Assembly (NCBI GenBank): GCA_944385785.1 | Contig: CALWYO010000047.1 | Span: forward strand, 1-48,202 | DNA: 48,202 nucleotides | Source of the DNA: an uncultured Oscillospiraceae bacterium | Lineage (GTDB): Bacteria; Bacillota; Clostridia; Oscillospirales; Oscillospiraceae | Reading direction: 5' to 3' | Part shown: positions 25,797-48,045 of the stretch, in pieces | Layout: every line of letters begins with the position of its first letter | Numbering within the stretch: position 1 is the stretch's first letter | The notes under the pieces: model-generated | Database searches by the model: none | What the model was told of the DNA's origin: nothing | What the model saw: only the letters and a program-made list of their open reading frames with translations | Translations under genes and position numbers: made by a program

Positions 25797-26601
25797 GAAT
25801 ACTGTATCGAAAGCCTATGATAGGGTAAAATTGGCCAGGCAGAATGGCAGGCCCACTGGAGTGGACTACATTGAGAATATAATCACTGATTTTATTGAAC
25901 TCCATGGAGATAGAAACTATGCCGATGACGAGGCCATTGTAGGCGGTATTGGATATCTGGATGGAAAGCCGGTTACAGTAGTCGCCATTGAAAAGGGGCG
26001 TAATTCCAAAGAGCGCGTAGCGCACAATTTTGGTGCGCCGCACCCTGAGGGATACAGAAAGGCCCTCCGCCTTATGAAACAGGCTGAAAAATTCAGGCGG
26101 CCTGTGATCTGTCTTGTGGATACGTCGGGGGCATATTGCGGAATAGGCGCTGAAGAGAGAGGACAGGGGCAGGCTATTGCCCAGTGCATTGTAGAGATGA
26201 TGGCTCTGAAGACACCTTCAGTGTCCATATTGATAGGCGAAGGAGGCAGCGGCGGAGCCCTGGCGCTGGCGGTTGCCGACCGAGTCTGGATGCTTGAGAA
26301 CGCCGTATATTCTGCCATATCTCCGGAGGGATGCGCCAGCATACTCTGGAAGGATTCGTCAAAGGCCGAAGAGGCTGCTGAGAGTTTGAAACTGACCGCC
26401 TCTGACGCCTTGGCTCTCGGTGTGATCGAAGAGATAATACCTGAACAGGAACTGGGCAAAGAGAGCTTTTACGAAAAACTGCGGGTGAAGCTGTCCAGGG
26501 AGTTTAGAGAGCTGACGTCCATGGATGTTGACCAGCTGGTCCAGCATAGATTTGAAAGGTTTCGCAACCTGGGTGTGCCGGATATGGGAGGTAAGAAATG
26601 A
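25789..26601 (+). CDS. accA: acetyl-CoA carboxylase carboxyltransferase subunit alpha
   Basis: The 270-residue alpha subunit has RPTGVDYIE, the FGAPHPEGYRKA segment, VDTSGAYCGIGAEERGQGQA, and GEGGSGGALALAVADRVWMLE, all classic AccA. I place the start at TTG 25789 because GGAGGTG ends six bases upstream. The GTG at 25780 lies within that ribosome binding site and would be too close. It overlaps accD by eight bases and the thioesterase gene by four. Confidence 0.94.
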   Translation: MAKNTVSKAYDRVKLARQNGRPTGVDYIENIITDFIELHGDRNYADDEAIVGGIGYLDGKPVTVVAIEKGRNSKERVAHNFGAPHPEGYRKALRLMKQAEKFRRPVICLVDTSGAYCGIGAEERGQGQAIAQCIVEMMALKTPSVSILIGEGGSGGALALAVADRVWMLENAVYSAISPEGCASILWKDSSKAEEAAESLKLTASDALALGVIEEIIPEQELGKESFYEKLRVKLSREFRELTSMDVDQLVQHRFERFRNLGVPDMGGKK

Positions 26602-27035
26602 GCGGGGATTTGGGCCGCGATTATGTCAGGCGGATATACTATTATGAGACAGACAACATGGGCATAGTCCATCACTCCAATTATATCCGTATAATGGAGG
26701 AGGCCAGGATGGATTTTATGCGTAATCTGGGCTATGAGTATACCGCCATGGAAGACCAGGGGATAATAATGCCTGTAACAGGGGTTTCCGCCCAATATCT
26801 ACAGCCTTTGCATTTTGACGATATAGTCCATGTGCACACAAAACTCACCAGTTTTAACGGCGTGCGCGCTGCTTTCAGCTATGAAATATTCAGGCAGGGC
26901 GAAGACAGACCATCCGCTGTGGGAGAGAGCGGCCACTGCTTTCTTGACACTGCCACAAGGGTACCTGTTAACCTGAAAAAACGGTATCCTGAGTTTTTTG
27001 AACGCGCTATGGAAATCCAGGAGAAAAGTAAATGA
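26598..27035 (+). CDS. YbgC-type acyl-CoA/acyl-ACP thioesterase (hotdog fold)
   Basis: The 145-residue protein is a single hotdog domain with the signature YYETDNMGIVHHSNY, whose D19 corresponds to the catalytic Asp of 4-hydroxybenzoyl-CoA thioesterase and YbgC. It would hydrolyse acyl thioesters to free acid. Four-base overlaps with accA upstream and the ligase gene downstream place it firmly in the fatty acid operon. This suggests a substrate among acyl-ACPs or acyl-CoAs, but chain length cannot be read from the sequence. Confidence 0.88.
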   Translation: MSGDLGRDYVRRIYYYETDNMGIVHHSNYIRIMEEARMDFMRNLGYEYTAMEDQGIIMPVTGVSAQYLQPLHFDDIVHVHTKLTSFNGVRAAFSYEIFRQGEDRPSAVGESGHCFLDTATRVPVNLKKRYPEFFERAMEIQEKSK

Positions 27036-28666
27036 GTATATACAAACAGTTCTGTGATGAGACATTTGACCAGCAGGGGCTTTTGACTGACTTTCAGATC
27101 AAATACCCATATAACTATAATTTCGGATACGATGTTGTGGACGAGATAGCCCGCCATGAACCGCAGAAGAGAGCACTTGTCTGGTGCAATACAGAGGGAA
27201 GGGAGAGAATCTTTACCTTCGAGGATATTTCCAGACTCAGCACAAAGACGGCCAACGTCCTGCATGCCAATGGTATAAAAAAAGGCGACAGGGTGATGGT
27301 TATGCTAAAACGCCATTATGAGTACTGGTATGTATCTGTGGCTCTACATAAAATAGGAGCTGTGATGATTCCCGTAACCCACATGCTCACCACAGATGAT
27401 ATTATATATAGGATCGAGACAGCATCCATAAAAGGCATTGTGTGTTCGCCAGACGAGGGGATTTTGAAAAAAGTCGGCCGTGCAATTGAGAAGACTGATT
27501 CTGTAATAGCCGCCTGGACCATCGAGAAAGAGGCTAAGGGATTTTTTAACCTCACATCTCAGGTGGAGGCGGCGCCGGATACAATGGAACGCGAGCTTAC
27601 GTTGGCTTCAGACCCGATGATTATGTATTTTACTTCAGGCACAACCGGCTATCCAAAAGGTGTAATACATGACCATACTTATACTCTGGCTCACATACTT
27701 ACTGCCAGGCACTGGCAGAACGTAGAGGACGGGGGCCTGCATCTGACTGTGGCGGAGACCGGCTGGGGAAAGGCCTCCTGGGGCAAGATTTACGGACAGT
27801 GGCTCTGCGGATGCGCTGTTATGGTCTTTGATTTTGACAATTTTGACCCGAAGCAGCTGATGACAATAATCAATAAATATCACGTTACCAGTTTCTGCGC
27901 GCCGCCGACTGTCTATAGATACCTTGTAAAAAAGGGAGTCGTGGATATGCCCTCCCTGAAGTATGTGACTACGGCTGGCGAGGCTCTTAATCCGGAGGTT
28001 TTCCGACTTTTCAAGGAGCAGACGGGTCTTACTTTGATGGAGGGTTTTGGTCAGACAGAATCTACGCTGATGCTTGCAAATCTTGTGGGCTCTGTTTCCA
28101 GACCGGGCTCTATGGGTAAGCCGACACCGCTCTATCATGTGGAGTTGCTTAATGACGATGGAGAATATGCAAAAACCGGCGAGATTGGGGAGATAGTAAT
28201 TATCCCTCCGTCAGACGGCCGTCGTCAGGCGGGCATATTTTCCGAGTATAACGGAAATGAGGATCTCTATAAATATGTCTGGAGGGGCGGTATATATCAT
28301 ACTGGAGACACAGCCTGGAGAGATGAAGAGGGATATTTCTGGTTTAACGGCCGTATAGACGATGTTATAAAGACAGGTGGGTTCCGAGTGGGGCCCTTTG
28401 AAATTGAGAACGTACTTATGGAGCATCCGGCAGTCATGGAGTGCTCGGTAATAGGCGTTCCGGATCCACTGAGGGGACAGGCGATAAAAGCGGTAATTGT
28501 ACTTTCGCCTGGATATGAACCCAGTTTGGAACTGCAAAAGGAGATAAGGGAGTTCTGCAACAGCCGAATTGCGGAGTATAAGTGGATCCGATCCATTGAA
28601 TTTGTAAAAGAGATGCCAAAGACTATCAGCGGGAAAATACGCAAGGTGGAGCAGCGGGGCGAATAA
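27032..28666 (+). CDS. AMP-dependent acyl-CoA synthetase (medium-chain/acetyl-CoA synthetase-like)
   Basis: This 544-residue adenylate-forming enzyme carries TSGTTGYPKG (201-210), TTAGEALNPE, GFGQTEST, TGDTAWRDEEGYFWFNGRIDDVIKTGG and the C-terminal catalytic Lys535 in KTISGKIRK. The overall pattern, including the TVAETGWGKASWGK segment, is that of medium-chain acyl-CoA synthetases. It would convert free fatty acid, ATP and CoA into acyl-CoA. As the last gene of the fab-acc operon, after a thioesterase, it could move chains from ACP to CoA, or salvage acids. A strong terminator follows. Confidence 0.9.
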   Translation: MSIYKQFCDETFDQQGLLTDFQIKYPYNYNFGYDVVDEIARHEPQKRALVWCNTEGRERIFTFEDISRLSTKTANVLHANGIKKGDRVMVMLKRHYEYWYVSVALHKIGAVMIPVTHMLTTDDIIYRIETASIKGIVCSPDEGILKKVGRAIEKTDSVIAAWTIEKEAKGFFNLTSQVEAAPDTMERELTLASDPMIMYFTSGTTGYPKGVIHDHTYTLAHILTARHWQNVEDGGLHLTVAETGWGKASWGKIYGQWLCGCAVMVFDFDNFDPKQLMTIINKYHVTSFCAPPTVYRYLVKKGVVDMPSLKYVTTAGEALNPEVFRLFKEQTGLTLMEGFGQTESTLMLANLVGSVSRPGSMGKPTPLYHVELLNDDGEYAKTGEIGEIVIIPPSDGRRQAGIFSEYNGNEDLYKYVWRGGIYHTGDTAWRDEEGYFWFNGRIDDVIKTGGFRVGPFEIENVLMEHPAVMECSVIGVPDPLRGQAIKAVIVLSPGYEPSLELQKEIREFCNSRIAEYKWIRSIEFVKEMPKTISGKIRKVEQRGE

Positions 28667-39971: not shown

Positions 39972-41156
39972 TTAGTGGTGGAAGAGTCTCATCCCAGTAA
40001 AGGCCATTGCGATGCCGTATTTGTTGCAGGTGGCTATTACATCGTCGTCTCTGACGGAACCTCCGGGCTGGGCAACATATTTTACGCCGCTTTTCGCAGC
40101 CCTCTCTATATTGTCGCCAAATGGGAAAAAAGCATCTGAACCGAGAGATACACCAGTGATAGTATCCAGATATTCACGTTGTTCCTGGGCGGTAAATGGC
40201 TCTGGACGCTGGGTAAAATATTTCTGCCACACGCCGTCAGCAGTGACGTCTTCTTCGTTCTTATTTATAAACCCGTCGATTACGTTATCCCTGTCGGCCC
40301 TTCCAAGACCTTTTTTAAACGGCAGTTCCAGAACCCTTGGAGACTGGCGCAGATGCCAGGTATCCGCCTTGCCTCCGGCCAGACGAGTGCAGTGAATACG
40401 GGACTGCTGGCCGGCTCCTACGCCGATAGCCTGTCCATCAAAAGCAAAGCAGACGGAGTTGGACTGAGTGTATTTAAGGGTGATGAGAGAGATGATAAGA
40501 TCTCTCTTTGCATCTTCGGGGATATTCTTGTTGTCTGTGACAACGTTTGCCAAAAGTTCGTAATCTATTTTGAAATCGTTGCGTCCCTGAGAAAAAGTAA
40601 CTCCAAATACATCTTTGGTTTCCTCGTGAGCCGGCACGTAGTTGGGATCTATCTGCACCACGTTATACCCGCCCTTCTTCTTTGAGGAGAGTATTTCAAG
40701 AGCGCGGGGAGTGTAGCCGGGAGCGATTATGCCGTCGGAAACCTCCCGTTTTATTATCCTGGCTGTCACTTCATCGCACACGTCCGAAAGAGCTATCCAG
40801 TCGCCAAAGGAACTCATTCTGTCGGTGCCCCGGGCACGGGCGTAGGCACAGGCAAGCGGAGAGTCGTCAAGCCCTTCTATATCGTCTACAAAACACGCCT
40901 TACGCAGCTGCGGGGAGAGCGGCCGTCCAACAGCGGCTCCGGCAGGGGATACGTGCTTGAAACTTGCCGCCGCAGGCATACCCAGCTCAGAACGAAGCTC
41001 CTTTACAAGCTGCCAGGAGTTAAGAGCGTCCAGAAAATTTATATATCCCGGCCGTCCGTTGAGTACCTCTATGGGAAGCTCACCGCCGCTCCGCATGAAG
41101 ATCTTGGCCGGCTTCTGGTTGGGGTTACAGCCGTATTTAAGCTCAAATTCCTTCAT
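39972..41156 (-). CDS. AICAR transformylase (stand-alone PurH C-terminal domain)
   Basis: The 394-residue protein corresponds to the AICAR formyltransferase half of PurH. It has the catalytic Lys-His pair in SFKHVSPAG (K67, H68), TLKYTQSNSV, GAGQQSRIHCTRLAG, SLGSDAFFPFGD and a QPGGSVRDD ending. The N-terminal IMP cyclohydrolase half of usual PurH is absent, and a separate PurO-like protein is encoded directly upstream with no gap. The pair together would carry out the last two steps from AICAR to IMP. The ribosome binding site is AGGAGG. Confidence 0.93.
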   Translation of the reverse strand: MKEFELKYGCNPNQKPAKIFMRSGGELPIEVLNGRPGYINFLDALNSWQLVKELRSELGMPAAASFKHVSPAGAAVGRPLSPQLRKACFVDDIEGLDDSPLACAYARARGTDRMSSFGDWIALSDVCDEVTARIIKREVSDGIIAPGYTPRALEILSSKKKGGYNVVQIDPNYVPAHEETKDVFGVTFSQGRNDFKIDYELLANVVTDNKNIPEDAKRDLIISLITLKYTQSNSVCFAFDGQAIGVGAGQQSRIHCTRLAGGKADTWHLRQSPRVLELPFKKGLGRADRDNVIDGFINKNEEDVTADGVWQKYFTQRPEPFTAQEQREYLDTITGVSLGSDAFFPFGDNIERAAKSGVKYVAQPGGSVRDDDVIATCNKYGIAMAFTGMRLFHH

Positions 41157-41870
41157 TTATATGGCCTCCTCTTGATTCTTGTTGTATATCCTGCTCTCAA
41201 ACTCACAATTGGAGTCTATTCTGGTGTATCTTACATATAAGGACACCTTATTGTCTGAATTAAGATTTTCCCAAAGCATATTGCCAAAGGCGTCGATATC
41301 GTTGCCTATACCAACTTCCTCAGGTTCACCGGAAAAAGACGGCAGAGGCTCTCCGTCGCCCTGATAAGTGTGAATAAACCTGCCGACGCCCGGTACAGGC
41401 GGATATTCAAATGTCTCCCTTATACAGTATTTCCCAGAGATGTCGGCGCTTTTAAGGATAGAGAGCTTGCAGCTGCCGTCAGACGACTGGAGCCCTGAAA
41501 TGCGCGGCGTCCAATTGGGGCCGTCTGGCTCGAATTCACGGGTGCGAAGAGCAGCTTCAAAGGTCTGACCTTCAAGCAGGAAATCCCTTATGGTGTCTGT
41601 CTGGTCTCCATTGGTGACAACCAGGTCTTTTCCGACTTTACGAACCGGATGGTAGATTATAAGACTGGGATCTGTCATGGCAGACTCATCAAAAGCCTTT
41701 GTACGGATTCCGTCTTCAGTGTTTTCAAAAACTCTGTTTCTTGAGTTTACGCTTCTGCCCATGATAAAATAAGCGGTTACAGCCCACTTTCCATCTGGGG
41801 ATACCCCCAGTACTATTCCTCTGCCCGGATATGGATTTCCGACAAGCAGTGCTCCCAAATCATATCTCAT
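41157..41870 (-). CDS. IMP cyclohydrolase, PurO-like family
   Basis: The 237-residue product has the stretches LLVGNPYPGRGIVLG, VTAYFIMGRSVNSRNRVF and ESAMTDPSLIIYHP. I associate these with the PurO-type IMP cyclohydrolase family, first known in archaea and also found in Clostridia. It would close the purine ring of FAICAR to IMP. ATG 41870 overlaps the purN stop by four bases and has AAGGAG upstream. Its gene directly abuts that of the stand-alone AICAR transformylase, its expected partner. Confidence 0.88.
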   Translation of the reverse strand: MRYDLGALLVGNPYPGRGIVLGVSPDGKWAVTAYFIMGRSVNSRNRVFENTEDGIRTKAFDESAMTDPSLIIYHPVRKVGKDLVVTNGDQTDTIRDFLLEGQTFEAALRTREFEPDGPNWTPRISGLQSSDGSCKLSILKSADISGKYCIRETFEYPPVPGVGRFIHTYQGDGEPLPSFSGEPEEVGIGNDIDAFGNMLWENLNSDNKVSLYVRYTRIDSNCEFESRIYNKNQEEAI

Positions 41871-45984: not shown

Positions 45985-46009
45985 CCATGTTTATATTTGA
46001 CAAACATGG
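45985..46009. promoter_or_regulatory. operator candidate overlapping the -35 box
   Basis: CCATGTTT (45985-45992) and AAACATGG (46002-46009) form a dyad centred within the promoter of the oxoamine synthase operon. Its right arm overlaps the TTGACA box, an arrangement typical of repressor sites. Confidence 0.5.
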
Positions 46010-46026
46010 TGATTATCGTGTAGCAT
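45997..46026 (+). promoter_or_regulatory. promoter of the oxoamine synthase/SDR operon
   Basis: A consensus -35 TTGACA (45997-46002) and -10 TAGCAT (46021-46026) are spaced by 18 bases, 41 bases before the chosen start codon. Confidence 0.7.
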
Positions 46027-46066
46027 AAGGGTGAACTATAAACAAAAGAGTACGGAGGTACATTCC

Positions 46067-47248
46067 ATGGATATATTCAAAAAATGCTCGGCTCACTCTA
46101 TTGCCGACGAAGCGCGGGAGCGGGGAATATACCCATATTTCCACGCGTTGGAATCACGTCAGGATGTGGAGGTGATAATGGAGGGCAAACGCCGGATAAT
46201 GCTTGGGTCGAATAATTATCTTGGACTTACCGTATGCCAGGAGGTTATAGACGCAGGTCTTGCAGCCCTAAAGCAATATGGTACAGGTTGCTCTGGCTCC
46301 CGATTTTTAAATGGGACGCTCCGTCTTCATCAGGAGCTTGAGGCTAAGTTGGCCAAATTCCTCCGCAAAGAGGATGTGGTCACTTTTTCTACCGGATTTC
46401 AGTCAAACCTTGGTATAATCTCCGCAATAGTGGGCCGAGGGGACTATGTGATATGCGACAGGGAAAACCATGCCAGTATTTATGACGGGTGCAAACTCTC
46501 TTACGGCACTATGCTCCGTTACCATCACAATGATATGGAGGATCTGGAAAAGCAGCTTAAGAAAGTACCTGATGAATCAGGATGCCTCATAGTCACAGAC
46601 GGCGTGTTCTCCATGGGCGGGGACATAGCAAATCTGCCTGAAATAGTAAGGCTTGCAAAAGAATATGGAGCGAGAGTTATGGTGGATGACGCCCACGGCC
46701 TTGGAGTTATAGGAGAGGGAGGACGTGGAACCGCCAGCTACTACGGCCTTGAGGATGATGTGGACATATATATGGGGACATTCTCCAAATCCCTGGCCTC
46801 CCTGGGCGGATACATGGCTGCCGATGCGCGAGTCTGCGACTATGTACGTCATACCTCCCGTCCATTTATATTTTCTGCCTCTATAACTCCTGCATCCTGC
46901 GCCACGGCTATAGCCGCCCTGGAGCACCTGGAGGCCCATCCGGAACTGGTAGATTCGCTGCAGCATATATCCGCGTTTTTCCGGCAGCAGCTGCTTGACC
47001 GAGGCATAAAAATACGTATGTCGGATACGCCAATAATACCGATCTATACATACGAGCCTATTGAGACGTTAACTATAGCGAAGCAGCTGTACGATGCAGG
47101 GGTGTATGTGAATTCCTCCCTGCCTCCGGCGGCCGCTCCTCATGAGTGTCTGCTGCGTACATCTCTGATGGCAACCCACACTGAGGAACTTGTCACTGAG
47201 GCGGCGGACATTATTCAAAAAGTGCTTGGTGAAAACGGCCTATGCTGA
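46067..47248 (+). CDS. PLP-dependent alpha-oxoamine synthase, serine palmitoyltransferase-like
   Basis: Alpha-oxoamine synthases condense an amino acid with an acyl thioester, with loss of CO2. The 393-residue product has the fold-type I pattern: GSNNYLGL (48-55), GTGCSGSRFLNGT (72-84), H135 stacking on PLP in ENHAS, the DDAHGLG acid D208/H210, and Schiff-base Lys241 in GTFSKSLASLGGY. The FSKSxxSLGG form around the lysine is closer to bacterial serine palmitoyltransferases than to Kbl (LGKALGGASGG) or BioF (FGKAxG). No other bio genes or tdh are present. ATG 46067 has GGAGGT eight bases upstream. It overlaps the SDR gene by seven bases. The assignment to sphingoid base synthesis is inference; BioF-like or Kbl-like activity remains possible. 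Confidence 0.85.
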   Translation: MDIFKKCSAHSIADEARERGIYPYFHALESRQDVEVIMEGKRRIMLGSNNYLGLTVCQEVIDAGLAALKQYGTGCSGSRFLNGTLRLHQELEAKLAKFLRKEDVVTFSTGFQSNLGIISAIVGRGDYVICDRENHASIYDGCKLSYGTMLRYHHNDMEDLEKQLKKVPDESGCLIVTDGVFSMGGDIANLPEIVRLAKEYGARVMVDDAHGLGVIGEGGRGTASYYGLEDDVDIYMGTFSKSLASLGGYMAADARVCDYVRHTSRPFIFSASITPASCATAIAALEHLEAHPELVDSLQHISAFFRQQLLDRGIKIRMSDTPIIPIYTYEPIETLTIAKQLYDAGVYVNSSLPPAAAPHECLLRTSLMATHTEELVTEAADIIQKVLGENGLC

Positions 47249-48045
47249 ACGCTAATGGTAAAGTAGTCCTTATAACAGGCGGCTCCAGCGGAATTGGGCT
47301 GGAAACTGCCCGCTGTCTGTCTCAGGCGGGCGCACATGTCTTCGAGATGAGCCGCAGAGATTCAGAAAGGTCCGGCATTACCCATATCCGCGGTGATGTA
47401 ACTCGGGAACCTGACTGCTCTGCTGCGGTTGAAGCGGTTATAAAGGAGAGCGGAGGAATAGACGTACTTATACTCTGCGCCGGATTTGGAATATCTGGAG
47501 CGGTGGAGTTTACAAGATCAGAGGATGCGCGCAGGCAGTTGGACGTAAATTTCTTTGGTGCCGTAAATATGGTCAAGGCCGCTCTGCCATATATGCGCCA
47601 GGCGCGCAAGGGCAGGATAATCATTATAAGCTCCGTTGCCGGAGCCATACCAATCCCCTTCCAGACATTCTATTCGGTTACAAAAGCGGCGCTGAACTCA
47701 TACGCAGGTGCGCTGCGTAATGAAGTACGGCCATATGGAATAAGCGTCTGCGCCATTATGCCTGGGGATATATCCACAGGCTTCACCGCCGCCAGAGTAA
47801 AGGAGGCGCGCGGAGATGCTGAATACGGTGGACGCATATCCCGTTCAGTGGCCAGAATGGAAAAGGACGAACAAAACGGCATGTCGGCCGCTGCGGCGGG
47901 CAGGTATATAGCGAAAATGAGCCTGCGGCGCAGTCTGCCTCCGTCAATGGCAATAGGAATTCAATATAAATTTTTCACAATGTTGGTTCGGCTGCTACCG
48001 TCACGTCTTGTAAGCCGGCTGGTGTACGGAATGTACGCCGCGTGA
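47242..48045 (+). CDS. SDR family oxidoreductase, candidate 3-ketosphinganine reductase-like
   Basis: The 267-residue protein is a classical short-chain dehydrogenase with TGGSSGIG (12-19), CAGFG, N103, S131, Y144 and K148 (YSVTK). The residues following the second strand (EMSRRD) suggest NADP preference. The C-terminus is basic and hydrophobic (MLVRLLPSRLVSRLVYGMYA), possibly membrane-associated, as in 3-ketodihydrosphingosine reductases. The start overlaps the upstream oxoamine synthase stop by seven bases, so the two products are made together. It would plausibly reduce the 3-keto product of that enzyme. Other SDR roles cannot be excluded. Confidence 0.85.
   Translation: MLNANGKVVLITGGSSGIGLETARCLSQAGAHVFEMSRRDSERSGITHIRGDVTREPDCSAAVEAVIKESGGIDVLILCAGFGISGAVEFTRSEDARRQLDVNFFGAVNMVKAALPYMRQARKGRIIIISSVAGAIPIPFQTFYSVTKAALNSYAGALRNEVRPYGISVCAIMPGDISTGFTAARVKEARGDAEYGGRISRSVARMEKDEQNGMSAAAAGRYIAKMSLRRSLPPSMAIGIQYKFFTMLVRLLPSRLVSRLVYGMYAA

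Follow-up and report, generated by a model that had tools for sequence, protein, structure and literature searches.

A probable two-gene sphingoid-base operon in an uncultured Oscillospiraceae bacterium

The window analyzed here is one entire 48,202-base contig (CALWYO010000047.1) from a 1.78-Mb, 131-contig, 73% complete genome of an uncultured Oscillospiraceae bacterium (assembly GCA_944385785.1), and close to its right end are two overlapping, rightward-transcribed genes that probably constitute a sphingoid-base operon, the first making 3-ketosphinganine and the second reducing it to sphinganine or a long-chain analogue. The upstream gene codes for an alpha-oxoamine synthase (AOS) that belongs to the serine palmitoyltransferase (SPT) clade and has an SPT-type active site, and the downstream gene codes for a short-chain dehydrogenase/reductase (SDR) with its catalytic residues intact; the two are paired at many loci and co-occur across genomes. 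The AOS, a pyridoxal phosphate (PLP) enzyme, would condense L-serine with an acyl thioester, presumably long-chain, to give 3-ketosphinganine and CO2, and the co-translated SDR would reduce this product, presumably with NADPH, and perhaps at the membrane surface through its basic C-terminal helices. The features of the locus are as follows.

46067..47248, forward strand: SPT-type AOS of 393 amino acids with PLP lysine K241, assigned from its translation, profiles, PDB scores, trees, residues, and structural model.
47242..48045, forward strand: classical SDR of 267 amino acids, a predicted 3-ketosphinganine reductase, assigned from its translation, KdsR profile, catalytic residues, and co-occurrence.
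47242..47248, forward strand: 7-nucleotide overlap of the AOS stop and SDR start (ATGCTGA), read from the sequence.
46054..46058, forward strand: Shine-Dalgarno-like GGAGG in the sequence, followed by 8 bases and then the AOS ATG.
45997..46026, forward strand: sigma-70-like promoter TTGACA-18-TAGCAT, of a type whose count in the region is that of chance (4 found versus 4.2 expected).

A sequence-only reading of this DNA had described two translationally coupled genes for an AOS and an SDR, and both reading frames are present where it put them, with the 7-nucleotide overlap and with the motifs GTGCSGSRFLNGT and GTFSKS in the AOS. The overlap would be expected to couple translation of the two genes. 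The SDR ends 157 nucleotides from the contig end, but in locus L009, where the AOS is 98% identical to that of the window, the next gene is a polynucleotide phosphorylase gene (pnp) on the opposite strand, and the unit there is therefore two genes. The purE gene lies upstream of the AOS and is retained in L009, L010, and L094, and thus the window locus is resident in the chromosome and not a stray contig.

The AOS has its best NCBIfam match to SerpalmtaseCFB (NF047600, the Bacteroidetes-type SPT) at 527 bits, with lower scores for the Proteobacterial SPT (396 bits), a BioF/Kbl-family subfamily and Kbl (381 bits), BioF (371 bits), and the CqsA-type model (192 bits). Against proteins of solved structure it scores 429 bits with Sphingobacterium SPT (3a2b), 257 with Kbl (1fc4), 212 with SulA (7u7h), and 180 with the best BioF, and its predicted structure (pLDDT 93) superimposes on SPT structures 8guh and 3a2b with TM-scores of 0.96 to 0.97 and 50% identity in the structural alignment. 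For phylogeny, the starting set was 160 AOS sequences, each from a different locus, leaving out fragments shorter than 340 amino acids and six repeats (the window copy L003 and five re-fetched loci). Discarding any nonreference row that shared 74% identity or more with one already retained left 77; the references were crystallized SPTs, Escherichia coli Kbl and BioF, Thermus BioF/Kbl, HemA, and annotated Bacteroides Kbl. In the maximum-likelihood tree, the window AOS, Sphingobacterium SPT 3a2b, and Sphingomonas SPT 2jg2 form one clade (bootstrap/Shimodaira-Hasegawa-like approximate likelihood ratio test [SH-aLRT] support, 100/99) that excludes the E. coli Kbl and BioF, Thermus BioF/Kbl, and HemA references. 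Within it, the Firmicutes members together with one Sphaerochaetaceae bin make up a monophyletic subclade of 32 rows (100/99). The SPT clade is recovered (94/92) in a second, 41-row tree to which Firmicutes sequences were added. The AOS is thus a member of the SPT clade; a placement firmly inside the Kbl or BioF clade, which the sequence-only reading had named as contradicting its proposal, is seen in neither tree.

The active site was compared with that of the Sphingobacterium SPT (SmSPT, whose numbering is used) at 19 positions, with residue roles as given in PMC10196870 and PMC9304779. The window AOS is identical at 16 of the 19, including N52, Y54, G80, S81, H138, D210, H213, T241, S243, K244, A274, and R367, and at each of the three differing sites (N50, S76, and I268, corresponding to SmSPT S53, A79, and M271) it has the residue most common in the other SPT-clade rows. 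Its active site is therefore of the SPT type at the residues checked. The G80, S81, and A274 sites distinguish the AOS families, and the residues there are Gly, Ser, and Ala in the window AOS and in all 32 rows of the Firmicutes clade.

Substrate choice is where the strongest alternative arises, namely that this is an SPT-like enzyme that uses alanine or glycine in place of serine and yields 1-deoxysphinganine-type or other long-chain amino alcohols. A characterized SPT accepts L-Ala and Gly, if poorly (PMC10196870), abundance data have tied sulfate-1-deoxyceramides to anaerobic bacteria of the Black Sea (PMC11334938), and SmSPT A79, which makes a water-mediated contact with the side chain of the substrate, is replaced by Ser in the window AOS and in 31 of the 32 Firmicutes-clade rows. 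However, Ser is also the commonest residue at this site in the other SPT-clade rows (8/16), and N52, G80, S81, T241, and A274, which surround the substrate in SmSPT, are retained in 32/32 Firmicutes-clade rows, so that we regard use of alanine or glycine as unlikely and L-serine as the probable substrate.

For the SDR, the best NCBIfam model is the 3-ketodihydrosphingosine reductase KdsR (NF049977) at 224.6 bits, with the next family at 190 bits, and KdsR is likewise the best model for the SDR of L020, which is linked to an AOS, and the unlinked SDR of L134. The protein matches Pfam adh_short (158 bits) and has the classical SDR motifs TGxxxGIG, Ser, and YxxxK, with catalytic residues S131, Y144, and K148 invariant across 38 aligned sequences. 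Its predicted model (pLDDT 96) has the standard SDR fold, and a fold search returns the general SDR fold, the best query TM-score among the 50 matches listed being 0.89 to human 17-beta-HSD1. The C-terminal segment carries a net charge of +6 over residues 228 to 267 and has predicted helices at 240 to 251 and 254 to 266 that are amphipathic by hydrophobic moment, which in the model suggests membrane attachment. The family name KDSR is a best guess from the sequence, strengthened by genomic context.

A quick tree of the SDRs is weakly resolved, with linked and unlinked SDRs intermixed, and the joining of the FabG outgroup to L091 on a long branch is taken as an artefact. In a second KdsR-like lineage (L083, L145, L149, and L153; 99% SH-aLRT), linked SDRs again stand among unlinked ones, a hint that some genomes have had their reductase replaced, and genome G074 carries two SDR copies, at 330 and 229 bits.

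Pairing of the synthase and reductase extends well beyond the window. It was scored at 90 loci whose AOS reaches at least 400 bits and is placed in the Firmicutes clade, with the window excluded, no two AOS identical, and L062, L064 to L066, L068, L070, and L071 left out as non-Firmicutes. An SDR directly adjoins the AOS at 55 of these (same-strand downstream at 47, same-strand upstream at 5, and divergently oriented at 3); at one further locus it lies 810 nucleotides away, and nine loci lacking a match are cut by contig ends. When the set is thinned at 75% AOS identity, the SDR is adjacent at 27 of 34 loci, near at one, and absent from six. Among 23 genomes with no SDR adjacent to the AOS, 16 have a KdsR match elsewhere (E ≤ 1e-45), as do 5/5 linked controls and 1/5 non-Firmicutes genomes.

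Co-occurrence was addressed with an SDR subfamily profile in an order-level sample of 24 SPT-positive genomes (from 36) and 22 SPT-negative genomes, hand-picked mainly by completeness. The profile scores 278 to 406 bits in 23 of the 24 positives, four of them unlinked, and at most 144 bits or without a match in all 22 negatives, such that none of the 22 carries the subfamily (Fisher P = 6e-12, uncorrected for relatedness). Because the SDRs used to build the model came from SPT-positive genomes, the informative part of this result is the absence of the SDR from the negatives. The pairing is not a product of chance, and the earlier proposal that a Firmicute has a coupled pair of SPT-like synthase and KDSR-like SDR is supported.

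The synthase is patchily distributed. An SPT model run over 245 genomes of the order finds 36 at 489 to 553 bits and five at 342 to 368 bits; of the three among those five that were placed in the tree, two group with Kbl and the third falls outside the SPT clade. Over 348 genomes of the phylum, 18 score at least 527 bits, including the genome of the window itself. Relatives with the AOS include records of Oscillospiraceae, Lachnospiraceae, Mogibacterium, Acholeplasmatales, and Izimaplasma, many of them gut bins. Ceramide lipids were reportedly once described in Acholeplasma axanthum.

Neighboring genes were clustered at 89 AOS loci (including the window copy) and 17 unlinked-SDR loci, of which 5/106 had no usable anchor. 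The SDR is the most frequent neighbor (52 loci), followed by htpG near unlinked SDRs (5 loci) and then several clusters of four, mostly from close relatives. In L164, L165, L166, L168, and L170, the unlinked KdsR-like SDR has htpG (Hsp90) at a distance of one to three genes, with Hsp90 confirmed for L164. A MarR-family gene lies directly upstream of the AOS in L019, L020, L027, and L109 (Pfam MarR confirmed in three of the four) and possibly codes for a lipid-responsive regulator of the operon.

These patterns bear on a further alternative, that an SPT-clade synthase has been recruited to make some other long-chain aminoketone or amino alcohol, such as a signal or antibiotic precursor, and not a membrane lipid. 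The patchy distribution (18/348 genomes of the phylum) and the lack of ceramide or headgroup genes recurring beside the pair in the neighbor clustering are compatible with recruitment. Against it, the clade is conserved across many families with one fixed partner, the locus in the genus of the window is flanked by purE and, in L009, by pnp, and the CqsA-type model scores just 192 bits. We consider such recruitment improbable, and a sphingoid-base function remains the preferred reading of the pair.

The other AOS identities considered fare far worse. Identity as Kbl or BioF, with roles in short-chain threonine catabolism or biotin synthesis, draws on the fold common to all of these enzymes and on the NCBIfam scores of 381 and 371 bits, but we reject it as highly improbable, as both trees exclude it, Kbl rows have Ser-Val-Asn at the G80-S81-A274 sites (8/8) and BioF rows have Thr at the A274 site (3/3) whereas the window AOS has Gly-Ser-Ala, and the expected partner genes reach threshold in none of the SPT-positive genomes searched. 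That the window lacks biotin genes and threonine dehydrogenase had been argued from this DNA alone, and the argument holds outside it: bioB is above its cutoff (225 bits) in 0/36 SPT-positive genomes, seven of which have weak matches of 73 to 104 bits, and none of 47 genomes, of which 25 are SPT positive, matches tdh at E ≤ 1e-80, with the caveat that the genome of the window is 73% complete.

With a cysteate acyltransferase of the SulA type, the pair would make capnine, a sulfonolipid base; SulA is a close lipid-making relative, and its product is also reduced by KDSR-like SDRs (PMC11211663); SulA has and requires Lys at the A274 site (PMC9304779), but its Lys281 corresponds to Ala271 in the window AOS, all 32 Firmicutes-clade rows have Ala, and the three aligned rows with Lys (L205, L206, and L207) fall outside the SPT clade, so we reject this identity too as scarcely credible. 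Ala at this position is by itself no proof of an SPT, since it also occurs in five of the aligned AOS that lie beyond the SPT clade.

Several observations weigh against assignment of the pair as a sphingoid-base operon, this occurrence of Ala in other AOS among them. Neither protein reaches its NCBI equivalog cutoff, the AOS scoring 527 against 640 bits and the SDR 224.6 against 400 bits, and they are therefore classed as predicted SPT-type and KDSR-type proteins and not as equivalog members. The 640-bit cutoff of NF047600 is reached by 0/245 genomes of the order and by only 2/80 sampled Bacteroidota genomes, and that of NF049977 is reached in no genome of two searched sets of 33 and 8, sphingolipid-type Bacteroidota included. 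In addition, 25 of the 90 loci have no SDR within at least 900 nucleotides on both flanks, 7/23 unlinked genomes have no KdsR match at E ≤ 1e-45 and several of the 16 matches in the others are weak (170 to 196 bits), SPT-positive genome G234 lacks the SDR subfamily (142 bits), and no second gene family recurs next to the AOS in more than five loci. A predicted SPT of Nostoc yielded no sphingolipid, so calls of this type made from sequence can fail, although this protein did not group with SPTs (PMC8895605).

The final point of this kind concerns later steps: no ceramide synthase was identified with a tentatively identified, putative bCerS query drawn from Proteobacterial SPT clusters, and no search was made for CerR. 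With this query, 25 SPT-positive genomes gave no convincing match, the one hit having E = 0.002 and an internal stop; a homologue was found in a control plasmid and none in three Bacteroidota genomes, and because it is missing from these as well, its absence from the Firmicutes says little. Possible ceramide synthases are encoded on two plasmids of Proteobacteria that carry SPT clusters: homologous proteins with 35% identity and lacking Pfam or NCBIfam matches (L217, 2782 to 3735, reverse strand; L126, 5114 to 6046, reverse strand), which adjoin lipid-kinase genes.

The source of the acyl chain had been linked to a fatty acid synthesis (FAS) operon in the same region, and part of that proposal stands. 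The operon is present in the window, with genes for FabK-like (NMO family), FabD, FabG, FabF, biotin carboxyl carrier protein, and FabZ-like proteins among 10 open reading frames scanned, and farther along it are a 4HBT thioesterase and an AMP-binding, acyl-coenzyme A (acyl-CoA) synthetase-like enzyme (26598 to 28666). It is about 17 kb from the AOS-SDR pair, with opposite-strand purine genes between (three checked). That the synthetase serves the sphingoid pathway is not supported by the distribution of its orthologues: the close orthologues (60 to 63% identity) found in 46 genomes belong to six SPT-negative ones and a single SPT-positive one, and the two SPT-positive genomes that share the genus of the window yield no match at E ≤ 1e-110. 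We have thus rejected it as the supplier. An acyl-acyl carrier protein (acyl-ACP) donor would be at least as likely as acyl-CoA, as has been argued for bacterial SPTs (PMC9304779).

Elsewhere in the window, no Rfam families or tRNAs were found. On the reverse strand at 39972 to 41870 is a split PurH, in which a separate AICARFT-family protein (PF01808) adjoins an IMP_cyclohyd protein (PF07826), presumably of the archaeal PurO type; the usual enzyme is fused.

Other placements in the 77-sequence tree include L036, the Sphaerochaetaceae bin, which groups inside the Firmicutes SPT clade, and L062 (Planctomycetota), L064 (Anaerolineae), and L070 (Elusimicrobia), which are inside the SPT clade and outside its Firmicutes subclade; these may reflect horizontal transfer or misbinning. 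L128 (2803 to 4038), on the Bacteroides faecis conjugative plasmid NZ_CP103142.1, codes for an AOS followed by a TetR-type regulator, and its top PDB match is an SPT (305 bits), yet it falls outside the SPT clade.

Most of the credit for gut sphingolipids with effects on host immunity and metabolism goes to Bacteroidetes. Should gut Clostridia also produce sphingoid bases, the attribution of gut sphingolipids and of their effects on the host would need to be revisited, and a Gram-positive carrier raises the question of the fate of sphinganine where the cell lacks a recognized ceramide synthase. More tentatively, and with somewhat less than an even chance of being right as a whole, we propose a monophyletic, mainly Firmicutes pathway of SPT and KDSR, often in one operon, in Oscillospiraceae-type, Lachnospiraceae, Anaerovoracaceae, and Acholeplasma/Izimaplasma-type organisms, which would feed sphingolipid synthesis through an acyltransferase unlike known ceramide synthases and through which Clostridia would supply part of the gut pool credited to Bacteroidetes. 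It is already established that SPT-like genes occur widely, with reports from 38 phyla in the Black Sea (PMC11334938), and Gram-positives have been mentioned as carrying them (PMC11087976). Among the titles and abstract openings of the accessible literature, subscription journals excluded, no publication was found on SPT in Clostridia or on an SPT-KDSR operon in Firmicutes.

Among characterized systems, the synthase is most like the Sphingobacterium multivorum SPT (3a2b/8guh, the Bacteroidota type) in identity (50%), fold (TM-score, 0.96 to 0.97), checked residues, and clade (100/99), and differs from it in belonging to its own monophyletic, mainly Firmicutes clade (100/99), in scoring below the NCBIfam cutoff, and in having an operon-coupled reductase. 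The SDR is like KDSR proteins (yeast Tsc10p and Bacteroides BT_0972) in being a classical SDR with KdsR as its best NCBIfam model and a Ser-Tyr-Lys set, a likeness drawn through the family model, and unlike them it is below the KdsR cutoff (224.6/400). Alistipes finegoldii SulA (7u7h, a cysteate acyl-ACP transferase) is similarly an AOS whose product, a long-chain ketone base, is subsequently reduced by an SDR, with Lys281 in place of Ala271 of the window AOS. The 3-ketocapnine reductases of Chryseobacterium and Alistipes, which are related to KDSR, are reported not to lie next to their synthase (PMC11211663), whereas the Firmicutes SDR is often adjacent.

The Caulobacter/Rhodobacteria pathway (Spt, AcpR, AasR, bCerS, and CerR) shares the SPT chemistry. 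However, that pathway has a dedicated ACP and an acyl-ACP synthetase accompanying Spt (PMC9386255), neither of which was seen to recur beside the Firmicutes synthase in the neighbor clustering, and in its authors' model acylation precedes reduction by CerR (PMC9278070 and PMC11087976). By this comparison, the pair would resemble the Bacteroides route, SPT and then KDSR, and not the Caulobacter route, although it departs from the Bacteroides route in being operon-coupled, in forming a separate clade, and in residing in Gram-positive Clostridia.

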